A DNA stretch of 64,000 bases from Anaerolineales bacterium. Its GTDB lineage: Bacteria > Chloroflexota > Anaerolineae > Aggregatilineales > UBA2796. Below, piece after piece: positions 54,353 through 61,438 of the stretch. The notes under the pieces were generated by a model. The model was not told where the DNA came from, made no database searches, and was given only the letters and a program-made list of their open reading frames with translations. Where the stretch lies: NCBI GenBank assembly GCA_015075625.1, contig JABTTZ010000003.1, positions 310,001 to 374,000 of the forward strand, written 5' to 3'. The number at the start of each line of letters is the position of its first letter. Within the stretch, counting starts at the first letter, position 1. A program made the position numbers and the translations under genes.

Positions 54353-54391
54353 ATAGTACACGAGTTTTTACTGAATGGAAAGAGGCATCCC

Positions 54392-54940
54392 ATGAAAATT
54401 TACACACGGACGGGCGATGAGGGCGAGACGAGTCTGTTTGCGGGGGGGCGCGTGCGCAAAGACCACCTGCGCGTAGAGACGTATGGCACGGTAGATGAAC
54501 TGAATTCCCTGCTTGGCTTGGCGCGAGCGCAGCACCTCCCCTCGGCGGCTGATGGATGGGTGGAGACGATCCAAAATGATCTCTTTACCTTAGGGGCAGA
54601 TCTGGCAACACCACTGGAGAGCAATCCGGCGTGGTTGGTACGGATGACCGCCGCCCCAATCACCGCCCTAGAGGAAGGGATCGACAAAATGGACGCTGAT
54701 CTTGCGCCGCTGAAAGCATTCATTTTGCCCGGAGGGACTCTGGCGGCGGCGGCGATCCATGTGGCGCGGACGGTCTGCCGCCGTGCCGAGCGGCTGTGTG
54801 TTGCCTTAGCCGCAGAGGGCGGCACGAATCCAGAGGCACTCCGTTACCTAAACCGTTTGTCCGATTATCTGTTCACCCTTGCCCGTTGGGTGAACCTTCA
54901 GGCGGGTGAGGCGGAAACAAAATGGGCAGTGCGGGGGTGA
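54392..54940 (+). CDS. cob(I)yrinic acid a,c-diamide adenosyltransferase (PduO/MMAB type)
   Basis: A 182-residue PduO-type ATP:cobalamin adenosyltransferase. The N-terminal ATP loop is TRTGDEGETSLFAGG, followed by VETYGTVDELNSLLGLAR, FILPGGTLAAAAIHVARTVCRRAER and the closing LNRLSDYLFTLARW, all characteristic. It transfers adenosyl from ATP to cob(I)alamin to make coenzyme B12. The ATG at 54392 has AGAGG eight bases upstream. The longer frame from 54272 reads through the rocD start and is not real. It is divergent from rocD. Confidence 0.94.
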   Translation: MKIYTRTGDEGETSLFAGGRVRKDHLRVETYGTVDELNSLLGLARAQHLPSAADGWVETIQNDLFTLGADLATPLESNPAWLVRMTAAPITALEEGIDKMDADLAPLKAFILPGGTLAAAAIHVARTVCRRAERLCVALAAEGGTNPEALRYLNRLSDYLFTLARWVNLQAGEAETKWAVRG

Positions 54941-55043: not shown

Positions 55044-57032
55044 ATGGAGCGCGTGGATACGATTTTGTCAGGTGGCTACGTCCTGACGATGAACGAGGGC
55101 TACGATTCCTATACAAACGGCGCGGTAGCTATCCGCGATGGCGTCATTGTGGCGGTGGGTCCGGCGGAGGAAATCCAACGCCACTACACCGCCGCTGATC
55201 TCGTCTTGTGTGAGGATCAAGTGATTATGCCTGGGTTGGTGAACAGCCACACCCATGCGGCAATGACCCTTCTACGTGGGTTGGCGGACGACCTACGCTT
55301 GGATGTGTGGCTCATGGGCTACATGATGCCCACCGAGGCGCATTTTGTGACGCCCGAATTTTGCCGCTTGGGGACGCTCCTCGCCTGTGCAGAGATGATC
55401 CGTTCGGGAATCACGATGTTCGCTGACATGTACTATTTCGAGTCGCATGTTGCCGCCGCCACCGCCGAGGCGGGCTTGCGCGGCGTCTTAGGGCAGAGCG
55501 TCTTAAAATTCCCCACCCCCGATGCCCCCAGTTACGAGGATGGCATTGCCGCTACACGGCGTTTTATTGAGGAATGGAAGGGACACCCTCTCATTGTGCC
55601 GGCAATTGCCCCCCACGCTCCCTACACCTGCACGGATGATATTCTCCTCGCCTGTGCGGAGGTCGCTCGCGATTATGATGTGCCGCTGCTGATCCACATT
55701 TCGGAAACCAAATTAGAGGTAGAGGACAGCCGTGAGGAATTTGGGATGCCCGTCGTCCCCCGCGTGAAGAAACTGGGGTTGGTCGATGTGAAAATGCTGG
55801 CGGCACACTGTGTCCATATCGACAGTGGCGAAATCCGCACACTGGCGAAACACAATGTAGGCGTCGCCCACTGCCCAACAAGCAATCTGAAACTTGCCAG
55901 CGGGATTGCCCCCGTTGTGGAGATGCTAGAACGGGCGATGAATGTGGGCATTGGGACGGACGGACCCGCCAGCAACAACGACCTTGATATGTTTGAGGAA
56001 GTGCGTCTTGCGGCGATCTTGGCGAAAGGGGCAACCCTGAACCCCGTTGTAGTTCCGGCAAAGCAAGCCTTGGCGATGGCAACCCGTTTGGGGGCGCAGG
56101 CAATGCACATGGGCGATATGACCGGCAGTTTGGAGGTGGGCAAGCGGGCGGATGTGATCACCGTGCGGCGGGCGACACTCCATAACACGCCGACCTTCTC
56201 CCGCGATCCTGATGCCGTCTACAGCCAGATTGTCTATGCCGGAAAAAGCACCGATGTTCAGCATGTGATGGTCAACGGCAAATGGCTGATGCAGGATCAG
56301 CGCGTGCTGACGGTGGATGAAGCGGCAGTGATGCGTGAGGCAAGAGATTTGGCGTTGCAAATCGATGCCTTCCTCGTCGCCCGCGAGGGGAATGTCCTGA
56401 ATAAACTGATTGCCATTGGCGGCGTAGAGCAAACGGAAAGTTTTGAGATTCAAGTGAAGGCACACCTTCCCGAAGCAGAAGATGCCGAGGCGCTTTTTGC
56501 CGCCCTCTTTGAGGAAACAACCGTACAAATTGTCCGGCAGACGCACTACCGGCAGTATGACACCTATTTCATGTTTCTTGACGCCACACAGGGGCGTGTG
56601 CGCTACCGCGAGGATGATGCGCTGGATAAGGATGGGAACGTGGAGAGCGTCCGTACACGGCTGACCTACACAACACCGAGCAAAGAAGTGGAGTTTGAGC
56701 AAGATGTCTTGTTGAGCCGCTCCCGATTCATTGCGGCAGCGAACCGCCCCCTGCGCTTTTACCGCGAATATTTCCGCCCCAACGAAGAACGTGCTATCCA
56801 AAAAGAGCGCCGCCGCTGGCATATTCTCTATAAGGGCGTCTTATTCTATGTGAACGCCGATAAAATGATCGCCCCAGAGATGGCAGGGTTGTTCGTTGAG
56901 ATCAAGAGCCAAACATGGTCGCGCAGTGACGCTGATTACAAAGCAAAACTGATCAGCGAATTACTTGCCATGTTGAACCTAACCCCCGAAAAACGGATTC
57001 GTAAAGAGTATGTTGAGTTGGCGCTGATTTAA
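55044..57032 (+). CDS. MTA/SAH deaminase-like amidohydrolase fused to a CYTH-like domain
   Basis: A 662-residue protein. Residues 1 to about 440 are a complete MtaD/SsnA-type amidohydrolase: NSHTHAAM with metal His 69 and 71, LADDLRLDVWL, HAPYTCTDDIL, HISETKLEVEDS, AHCVHIDSGE, HCPTSNLKLASG and IGTDGPASNND with the last metal Asp. Residues about 464 to 662 resemble the CYTH/triphosphate tunnel fold: FEIQVKAHLPE in the place of the ExExK motif, HYRQYDTYFMF, VRYREDD, TRLTYTTPSKEVEFE and GLFVEIKSQTW. The middle Glu of ExExK is Gln. Deamination of methylthioadenosine or S-adenosylhomocysteine is inferred for the N-terminal part. The role of the second domain is unknown. Confidence 0.82.
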   Translation: MERVDTILSGGYVLTMNEGYDSYTNGAVAIRDGVIVAVGPAEEIQRHYTAADLVLCEDQVIMPGLVNSHTHAAMTLLRGLADDLRLDVWLMGYMMPTEAHFVTPEFCRLGTLLACAEMIRSGITMFADMYYFESHVAAATAEAGLRGVLGQSVLKFPTPDAPSYEDGIAATRRFIEEWKGHPLIVPAIAPHAPYTCTDDILLACAEVARDYDVPLLIHISETKLEVEDSREEFGMPVVPRVKKLGLVDVKMLAAHCVHIDSGEIRTLAKHNVGVAHCPTSNLKLASGIAPVVEMLERAMNVGIGTDGPASNNDLDMFEEVRLAAILAKGATLNPVVVPAKQALAMATRLGAQAMHMGDMTGSLEVGKRADVITVRRATLHNTPTFSRDPDAVYSQIVYAGKSTDVQHVMVNGKWLMQDQRVLTVDEAAVMREARDLALQIDAFLVAREGNVLNKLIAIGGVEQTESFEIQVKAHLPEAEDAEALFAALFEETTVQIVRQTHYRQYDTYFMFLDATQGRVRYREDDALDKDGNVESVRTRLTYTTPSKEVEFEQDVLLSRSRFIAAANRPLRFYREYFRPNEERAIQKERRRWHILYKGVLFYVNADKMIAPEMAGLFVEIKSQTWSRSDADYKAKLISELLAMLNLTPEKRIRKEYVELALI

Positions 57033-57075: not shown

Positions 57076-57729
57076 ATGTCGGGACTGCCAGAAAACCCAA
57101 TTTTGATCATCAGCAGCGGGGGCAACGCGGGTCAGCGCTGCGCGATCAAAACACAGACTTTCCTCATCGGACGTGATCCATCCTGTGAGCTTTCGCTGAA
57201 CGAGCGAGAAATTTCGCGTCACCACGCGAAAATCACCCAAGAAGGAGAGCGTTTCATCCTCCATGATTTGGAGAGTAAGAATGGGACATGGGTGAATGGC
57301 GAGCAGCTGCAAGGGCAGCGCGACCTTGAAGATGGCGATGAGATTGTGCTAGGGAAGGTGGTGCGCATCACCTTCACCGAGTCGGAATCCACCGCCCCCT
57401 ACAACCCTGAAAATGCCCCCTTTGACGGGAAACTCCGGCTAGAACGGGAATCGCGGCGGGTATTCGTGGATGAACGGGAAGTAAATCCCCCCTTGAGTCT
57501 GCCGCAGTACCGGTTGTTGGAACTGCTCTTTGATGCGCGGGGTGCAATCTGCACGCGGGATCAGGTGGTGCGGGCGGTGTGGCCCGATGCAATCAGTGAG
57601 GGGGTCAGCGAGCAGGCGATTGATGCGCTGGTGCGGCGGCTGCGGGATCGAATTCGGGAGTTAGATTCCTCGCATGAGTACATCGTCACCGCACGGGGGC
57701 ATGGCTTTCGGCTGGACAACGAGGGGTGA
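57076..57729 (+). CDS. FHA domain-winged helix DNA-binding protein
   Basis: A 217-residue regulator. The FHA domain covers about residues 10-105 with the phosphothreonine-binding pattern LIGRDPSCELSL, REISRHHAKI and LESKNGTWVNG. The C-terminal half (about 125-215) is an OmpR/PhoB-type winged helix: LSLPQYRLLELLF, VVRAVWPDA, IDALVRRLRDRIREL and YIVTARGHGFRLDN. No receiver domain is present. It probably binds DNA according to Ser/Thr kinase signalling, although no kinase is nearby. AGAGGAA lies upstream of the ATG. Its last codons and stop (57715-57736) are repeated exactly at 62702-62723. Confidence 0.9.
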   Translation: MSGLPENPILIISSGGNAGQRCAIKTQTFLIGRDPSCELSLNEREISRHHAKITQEGERFILHDLESKNGTWVNGEQLQGQRDLEDGDEIVLGKVVRITFTESESTAPYNPENAPFDGKLRLERESRRVFVDEREVNPPLSLPQYRLLELLFDARGAICTRDQVVRAVWPDAISEGVSEQAIDALVRRLRDRIRELDSSHEYIVTARGHGFRLDNEG

Positions 57730-59253: not shown

Positions 59254-60411
<1,158 letters not shown>

Positions 60412-61438
60412 TATCATACGTCTTATGTGAAATTAAAAAGCATGAACAGATGACCATTGAAAAGTCTGGACATGAATGCCATAGCGAAGGCGCAACAAGT
60501 ATTTGAGCAAGTGAGCAGTGACTTTGGCAATCAGGCGGGTGGTCAAGCCCAGCACCGTCTTCGCCAACAGACGCTCCAAGTTGCGTCCCGTATTCTGAAG
60601 TTCGTGAAATACCCCTTCAATCCGCTCACGCACACGGTTGAGCAACTGCTCAAAGCCGTCAGGATGTTGGATTTTCTGGTTCTTGCGCTTGGGGGTCAGC
60701 AAAGTGTTGCCCGTTCGCTGCTGAATTTGGGCTTGCCACTCGCCCCCGACAAACCCTTTATCGCCCAAGATTTCAGCGTTGGACACTTCATCAAGGATCG
60801 TTTCAGCCGCTTGTCTTTCCTCGGTGTTGGCGGACACCAGATCGTAGACGACAGGAATACCGTCCAGCGTCGCAATCAACACCAGTGTGTAGCCGAAATA
60901 GTGCAAGTTGCGACTGGCGCAATACCCGTAATCTGCACTGCCTCGAAAGTCGCTGCGGGCTTTGCTCCGTTTGTAAGCCAACACCGGCACGGGCTTGGTA
61001 TCAATCAAGTATTTGTCGGCTTGTCCCACGCCCAATTCCATCAACCACTCCCGACGCAACGCTTCCACCAAATGCCGCAGTCCCCGTGCCCGTCGATTAA
61101 ACTGACTTTGGTCAAGCAACTGCGGAAACAGGGGCAAGTAATTGGCACGGATGAACGCCAGATATTGCATCTCAGCAGGATAGGGGATGTAATCCTCTGC
61201 CACCATCAGCGTCATTCCCTCACTGTCACTGAAACTGGGCTTGCGTCCCACTTTCCCCTTCATCATCCTGCCTCCTCTCGCTTGATACCAATCATCAATC
61301 AGCACAAAGATGATGGTCAACAGCGTTTCAAGGTCTATACTGGTCATGGGTTGTTTTCCTTTGATGGTTTGTTTGGTAACTTCCCATCTTGGCAAACACC
61401 TCTTTTTGTCAACTACATTTCACATAGAGCGTATAATA
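60412..61438. mobile_element. IS982-type insertion sequence, complete
   Basis: About 1027 bp. Imperfect terminal inverted repeats of about 22 bp: left 60412-60433 (TATCATACG then TATGTGAAAT) and right 61417-61438, whose reverse complement is TATTATACG then TATGTGAAAT, with mismatches in the centre. It contains one transposase gene on the minus strand. The size fits the IS982 group (about 1 kb). I see no convincing target duplication. The left end abuts the methyltransferase stop codon. Confidence 0.75.
60433..61347 (-). CDS. IS982-family-like DDE transposase
   Basis: A 304-residue transposase. The ATG at 61347 (MTSIDLETLL) has AAAGGA nine bases upstream and is preferred over the ATG at 61395. 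Helical N-terminal domain with FSDSEGMTLMVAEDYI and QSQFNRRARGLRHLV, then a DDE core: YLIDTKPVPVLAYKR (first Asp), ILGDKGFVGG (second Asp) and a Glu in RVRERIEGVFHELQN. Length, layout and element size fit IS982, but related IS4/IS5-type groups cannot be excluded. The frame is intact, so the element may be active. Confidence 0.82.
   Translation of the reverse strand: MTSIDLETLLTIIFVLIDDWYQARGGRMMKGKVGRKPSFSDSEGMTLMVAEDYIPYPAEMQYLAFIRANYLPLFPQLLDQSQFNRRARGLRHLVEALRREWLMELGVGQADKYLIDTKPVPVLAYKRSKARSDFRGSADYGYCASRNLHYFGYTLVLIATLDGIPVVYDLVSANTEERQAAETILDEVSNAEILGDKGFVGGEWQAQIQQRTGNTLLTPKRKNQKIQHPDGFEQLLNRVRERIEGVFHELQNTGRNLERLLAKTVLGLTTRLIAKVTAHLLKYLLRLRYGIHVQTFQWSSVHAF

Follow-up and report, generated by a model that had tools for sequence, protein, structure and literature searches.

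What is a CYTH, or triphosphate-tunnel (TTM), domain doing at the end of a deaminase? The question is raised by a gene in a 64-kb window, the whole stretch of DNA that was analysed, which covers positions 310,001 to 374,000 of JABTTZ010000003.1 (GCA_015075625.1, Anaerolineales bacterium). All coordinates below are those of the window. A preliminary description of this DNA had proposed that a deaminase of the MTA/SAH type runs without a stop into a CYTH-like domain with an altered metal site, and had linked the pair to the salvage of SAM by-products. What CYTH proteins do in the cell is for the most part unknown (PMC8233210). Is the pairing real, or is it the product of a frameshift or an assembly error? 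And, if it is real, does the tunnel still hydrolyse its ligand, or does it serve the deaminase in some other way?

One gene, two domains

The deaminase and the CYTH-like domain lie in a single frame of 662 residues, and both domain identities are supported. The gene has the following parts.

55044..57032, + strand: whole fused gene, 662 aa plus stop; one open frame from the ATG at 55044 to the stop at 57032; relatives have a matching frame length
55044..56363, + strand: deaminase domain of the MTA/SAH/5'-deoxyadenosine type, residues 1-440 (PF01979 and 4f0r matches)
55248..55256, + strand: H69-x-H71, which we take to be metal ligands from what is known of the amidohydrolase superfamily; invariant in 71 of 71 fused proteins, with H218, E221, H255 and D306 farther downstream
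55695..55706, + strand: H218 to E221, a metal ligand of the deaminase site and its catalytic Glu; identical in 71 of 71
56319..56432, + strand: helical linker, residues 426-463, with helices at 426-448 and 451-459 in the full-length model
56433..57029, + strand: CYTH/TTM domain, about residues 464-662 (family profile, predicted fold, profile-profile match)

All of the motifs by which the second domain had been recognised were located: FEIQVK at residues 467-472, YDTYF at 505-509, RYRED at 520-524 and FVEIK at 617-621. A frameshift or assembly artefact is ruled out by the presence of an equally long frame across hundreds of genomes. The full-length model has a pTM of 0.72, and the placement of the deaminase and CYTH domains relative to each other is uncertain in it. 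A scan for promoters and terminators found nothing above shuffled sequences.

The deaminase domain and its substrate

A Pfam profile search places Amidohydro_1 (PF01979) at residues 60-415 (E 7.7e-76), and a sequence search of solved structures matches residues 3-435 to the MTA/SAH deaminase 4f0r (E 1.4e-101). Compared by Foldseek with the model of the full protein, 4f0r is 42% identical over 440 columns, with a TM score of 0.95 by target length. The likeness to MTA/SAH deaminases, namely 4f0r (Chromobacterium), 4gbd (P. aeruginosa, bound to methylthio-coformycin) and TM0936 (1p1m), and to DadD of Methanocaldococcus extends across the entire N-terminal domain, but the matching solved chains, of about 400-480 aa, stop where the fused protein enters its second domain. 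The residues of the deaminase site, comprising the metal site (HxH, H, H and D), the catalytic Glu and the substrate Glu/His, are present as H69, H71, E98, H191, H218, E221, H255 and D306 and are invariant in all 71 fused proteins compared; the active site is intact.

The curated NCBIfam equivalog cut-offs for MTA/SAH and 5'-deoxyadenosine deaminases are not reached by this domain, the best being NF006549 with 472 of 540 bits; the 5'-deoxyadenosine deaminase model NF005557 gives 351 of the required 522 bits. The genome encodes an AhcY, above cut-off, whose sequence reads HVTTE, a form of the HxTxE motif that has been tied to SAH preference (PMC10978960). It also encodes an MTA phosphorylase (MTAP), likewise above cut-off, and MtnA. 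Since AhcY and MTAP/MtnA give SAH and MTA other routes, the likeliest special substrate of the fused enzyme is 5'-deoxyadenosine, the by-product of radical-SAM reactions, for which the genome shows no other obvious route. The proposed role in the salvage of SAM by-products thus holds in part: the deaminase domain is of the fitting type, while SAH or MTA as the main role is made less likely by the SAH-preferring AhcY and the MTAP.

The C-terminal domain is a triphosphate tunnel

Taken alone, the 222 C-terminal residues of the window protein have no Pfam match and fall below the cut-off of the CYTH family PF01928. NCBIfam gives them a weak match to TIGR00318 (cyaB, class IV adenylate cyclase; E 0.0041), and searches of the domain sequence directly against solved structures returned nothing or chance matches only. 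The relatives give a different result. Scanned one by one, 15 of 21 match PF01928 (best E 1.3e-9), and in the family search of whole genomes several fused proteins exceed its Pfam cut-off of 23.2 bits. The profile check that had been suggested for this region therefore fails for the window sequence by itself and succeeds for its family.

An AlphaFold model of the domain, built with 21 relatives, has a mean pLDDT of 88.6 and a pTM of 0.84, and bears out the expected eight-stranded tunnel. Its top Foldseek match is the Sulfolobus TTM SaTTM (7nsf, E 7.8e-9), and the plant tandem structure 7z67 is the fourth. VIA-align gives Z 17.4, with an rmsd of 2.3 over 168 aligned residues, to PH1819 (2een) and Z 16.1 to SaTTM (7ns9). 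In profile comparisons, hhalign matches the domain to a 1yem-like CYTH group with 94% probability (E 1e-7). With a group of canonical single-domain CYTH, which takes in the CYTH encoded elsewhere in the same genome, the probability is only 9%, yet the motif columns fall as expected. The fold and the family profile rule out a chance resemblance to CYTH.

Which residues of the tunnel are altered?

Conservation was assessed in the same 71 fused proteins, whose tunnel domains go down to 31% pairwise identity. The residues concerned are as follows.

56445..56459, + strand: E468-I-Q470-V-K472, the counterpart of ExExK, with Gln in place of the second Glu (ExQxK); 71 of 71, column match
56601..56609, + strand: R520-Y-R522, the RxR triphosphate-binding motif; 71 of 71, column match
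56670..56672, + strand: T543, where canonical CYTH has the tunnel lysine (LTYK there, LTYT here); T, I, V, L or M in 70 of 71, column match
56754..56774, + strand: R571-F-Y-x-E-Y-F577, a near-invariant, family-specific helix (alignment conservation)
56802..56816, + strand: K587-x-R589-x-R591, basic tunnel residues; K587 and R589 in 71 of 71, R591 in at least 98%
56898..56906, + strand: E619-I-K621, the counterpart of ExE, in which the metal-1 Glu is retained and Lys stands in for the metal-2 Glu; 71 of 71, column match
56913..56933, + strand: T624-W-S-x-x-D-A630, near-invariant and family-specific, after strand 8 (alignment conservation)

Against canonical CYTH, FEIQVK aligns on TETEVK, RYR on RLR, LTYT on LTYK and FVEIK on FVEIE. 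Ten residues (E468, Q470, K472, R520, R522, K587, R589, D606, E619 and K621) show no variation across the 71 proteins, which, at pairwise identities as low as 31%, argues for a selected tunnel function. Of the features of a two-metal TTM triphosphatase, ExExK and the strand-8 ExE are absent, while the basic RxR and K.R are present in every protein.

In the enzymes studied, metal 1 sits on the first Glu of ExE and binds the triphosphate. Metal 2, held by the glutamates of ExExK together with the second Glu of ExE, activates the water, and the first Glu of ExExK is oriented by another lysine, K76 in AtTTM3 (PMC8233210, PMC4641920). The metal-1 Glu is given as E135 and the basic residues as R56, R58, K69, K110 and R112 (PMC8233210). 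Mapped onto this scheme, the fused domain keeps the metal-1 Glu and the basic triphosphate-binding residues, but has other residues at two of the three metal-2 ligand positions (Q470 and K621) and at that of the orienting lysine. The suspicion that the Gln alters metal binding is therefore supported: the Gln is invariant, and so is the replacement of Glu by Lys in the second metal motif with which it is paired, so that the entire metal-2 site is replaced.

Two familiar CYTH activities were considered and rejected. Class IV adenylyl cyclases (CyaB) are marked by an HF motif before ExExK and by an ExE whose second Glu has become Ala (PMC8233210); the fused domain has no HF, and every row of the alignment has Lys, not Ala. 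The W/YxRxR of thiamine triphosphatases is also absent, the position two before R520 being R518 (R in 47 of 48) with no aromatic residue.

Among known systems, the archaeal-type CYTH (SaTTM 7ns9, PH1819 2een, 1yem and 2dc4) are alike in fold (Z 16-17), RxR, K.R, metal-1 Glu and ExxxK frame. In contrast to them, the fused domain has ExQxK rather than ExExK and ExK rather than ExE, has lost the tunnel lysine, and adds the RFYxEYF and TWSxxDA motifs and a deaminase partner. Plant TTM1 and TTM2 (kinase-TTM fusions, 7z67) are similar in that their TTM lacks the canonical metal-2 motifs and follows a nucleotide-related enzyme domain, but there the partner is a P-loop kinase; they make up cluster 7 of PMC8233210, which is confined to Viridiplantae and Amoebozoa. 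YgiF of E. coli (CYTH-CHAD) is likewise a bacterial multidomain CYTH, but it is an active PPPase with both metal sites and its partner is CHAD.

Age and spread of the fusion

The domain is present in 243 of the 396 genomes of the class and, among the matches listed, the frames are almost all about 650-750 aa and nearly all free of stops. In a separate sample of the phylum, 62 of 301 genomes had it, some of them from families outside the class, and in all but one case the frames were long. The named carriers include Anaerolinea, Ardenticatenia, Roseilinea, Chloroploca, Oscillochloris and Herpetosiphonaceae. A few short frames are present, but no convincing free-standing copy of the domain was found among the 396 class and 301 phylum genomes. 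Of the domain-lacking genomes checked, one (G028) has a free-standing deaminase homologue of 43% identity, and in another (G004) a match of 62% reaches the end of the contig.

Separate trees of the two domains from the 71 proteins have 42 of 68 splits in common (mean with shuffled labels, 0.19) and contradict each other at only 3 of 49 well-supported splits; the pairwise distances of the two domains correlate at 0.85. The simplest reading of these trees is a single fusion followed by vertical descent. The pairing is old and occurs widely among the Chloroflexi. The fusion is also seen in MAGs labelled Acidobacteria and cyanobacterium (L026 and L011), where the contigs are probably misbinned Chloroflexota. 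Other long CYTH frames (541-875 aa) occur in the class, some of which are perhaps CYTH-CHAD or other fusions. The architecture had been thought undescribed, and we found no description of a deaminase-CYTH protein in the literature searched, which did not extend to the founding CYTH survey (BMC Genomics 2002).

Gene neighbourhood and the second CYTH gene

Two genes flank the fusion in the window.

54386..54940, + strand: PduO-type cobalamin adenosyltransferase (PF01923), just upstream of the fusion
57076..57729, + strand: FHA domain with an OmpR-type winged helix and no receiver domain, 43 bases downstream of the fusion

The adenosyltransferase reaction releases PPPi. Its gene adjoins the fusion in only 1 of 41 loci, and the FHA-winged-helix gene lies near it in 12-14 of 41, mostly on the opposite strand; no constant operon partner was found among these 41 loci. 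Farther along the window, a DNA methylase with a RAMA domain (59272-60411, + strand) adjoins a DDE transposase (60433-61395, - strand).

Elsewhere in the same genome there is a separate canonical CYTH with both ExExK and ExE intact. Its gene (positions 1315-1938 of locus L057, - strand) directly adjoins that of a 490-aa protein resembling a Ppx/GppA phosphatase with an HD part, and this neighbour suggests a role in polyphosphate metabolism for the canonical CYTH.

Sensor or enzyme?

To judge by its residues, the job of the tunnel is probably to sense a phosphate compound and not to cut it. With the metal-1 Glu and the basic residues kept and the metal-2 ligands replaced, binding of a ligand without classical hydrolysis is predicted. 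Further support comes from the separate intact CYTH, by which the canonical hydrolytic job would already be filled in this genome. The main rival to this reading is a non-classical reaction, because natural TTMs without site 2 exist (Vtc4p, plant TTM1/2). AtTTM1/2, which lack ExExK and ExE and are fused to a nucleotide-kinase-like domain, use pyrophosphate (PMC8233210); by analogy, loss of site 2 should not be read as proof that catalysis has been lost. The fused domain might then be a TTM1/2-like pyrophosphatase or a one-metal triphosphatase, and the fusion would join two nucleotide or cobalamin reactions. The rank of 7z67 among the Foldseek matches is consistent with such an enzyme, as are tunnel residues that are as invariant as an active site. 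However, mutations of the metal-ligand glutamates strongly reduce hydrolysis in AtTTM3 and YgiF (PMC4641920), and there is a canonical CYTH gene at another place in the genome; we consider this rival unlikely.

Nor does a purely structural or oligomerisation module, with no ligand of its own, seem at all likely. CYTH proteins typically dimerise (PMC8233210) and the RFYxEYF helix is near-invariant and specific to the family, but E468, Q470, K472, R520, R522, K587, R589, E619 and K621 match the TTM tunnel motifs and have stayed invariant despite 31% identity. Could the domain instead be a classical inorganic triphosphatase in spite of its substitutions, clearing PPPi, for example from the cobalamin adenosyltransferase encoded just upstream, of which it is the by-product? 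The loss of two of the three metal-2 ligands and of the orienting lysine, and the presence of that neighbour in a single locus of the 41, make this very improbable. Least credible is a Vtc4-like phosphotransferase or polyphosphate polymerase. The natural TTM Vtc4p, a polymerase, retains metal site 1 but not site 2, and has basic residues at places occupied by Glu in TTM hydrolases (PMC4641920); in the fused domain Lys takes the place of the second Glu of ExE. Against this, E468 is retained, Q470 carries no charge, nothing pointing to polyphosphate was seen around the fusion, and Vtc4 belongs to a membrane complex.

Returning to the sensor, we put at about even the chance that the protein is a deaminase with a built-in sensor of a phosphate compound in its C-terminal tunnel, a model in which we infer the ligand, the lack of hydrolysis, the allostery and the substrate preference. 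The N-terminal domain would hydrolytically deaminate 5'-deoxyadenosine, and possibly MTA and SAH. The tunnel would bind a Mg-complexed triphosphate ligand, which may be ATP or another NTP, inorganic triphosphate or a short polyphosphate, held by the metal-1 Glu E619 together with K472, R520, R522, K587 and R589. A second, water-activating metal would not be positioned, with Q470 and K621 standing for two of the three glutamate ligands. Occupancy by the ligand may open or close the tunnel, as in SaTTM, and the helical linker would transmit this movement to the deaminase, so that the salvage of by-products is adjusted to the energy or phosphate state.

Significance

The conserved single-chain partner of this CYTH domain, together with the invariant alteration of the tunnel, names a pathway, the deamination of purine by-products, and predicts binding of a ligand without classical hydrolysis. 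More tentatively, with the chances somewhat short of even, in the whole family across the phylum what was once a triphosphate hydrolase may now act as a dedicated allosteric sensor of ATP, PPPi or polyphosphate that gates the recycling of 5'-deoxyadenosine (and of MTA and SAH). We know of no described allosteric control of SAM by-product salvage in bacteria. If the sensor is real, it would also be, to our knowledge, the first bacterial CYTH domain shown to be a ligand sensor on a fused metabolic enzyme. It would mean that a CYTH domain can act as a sensor, and that the Chloroflexota tie their methyl and radical-SAM metabolism to phosphate or energy state.
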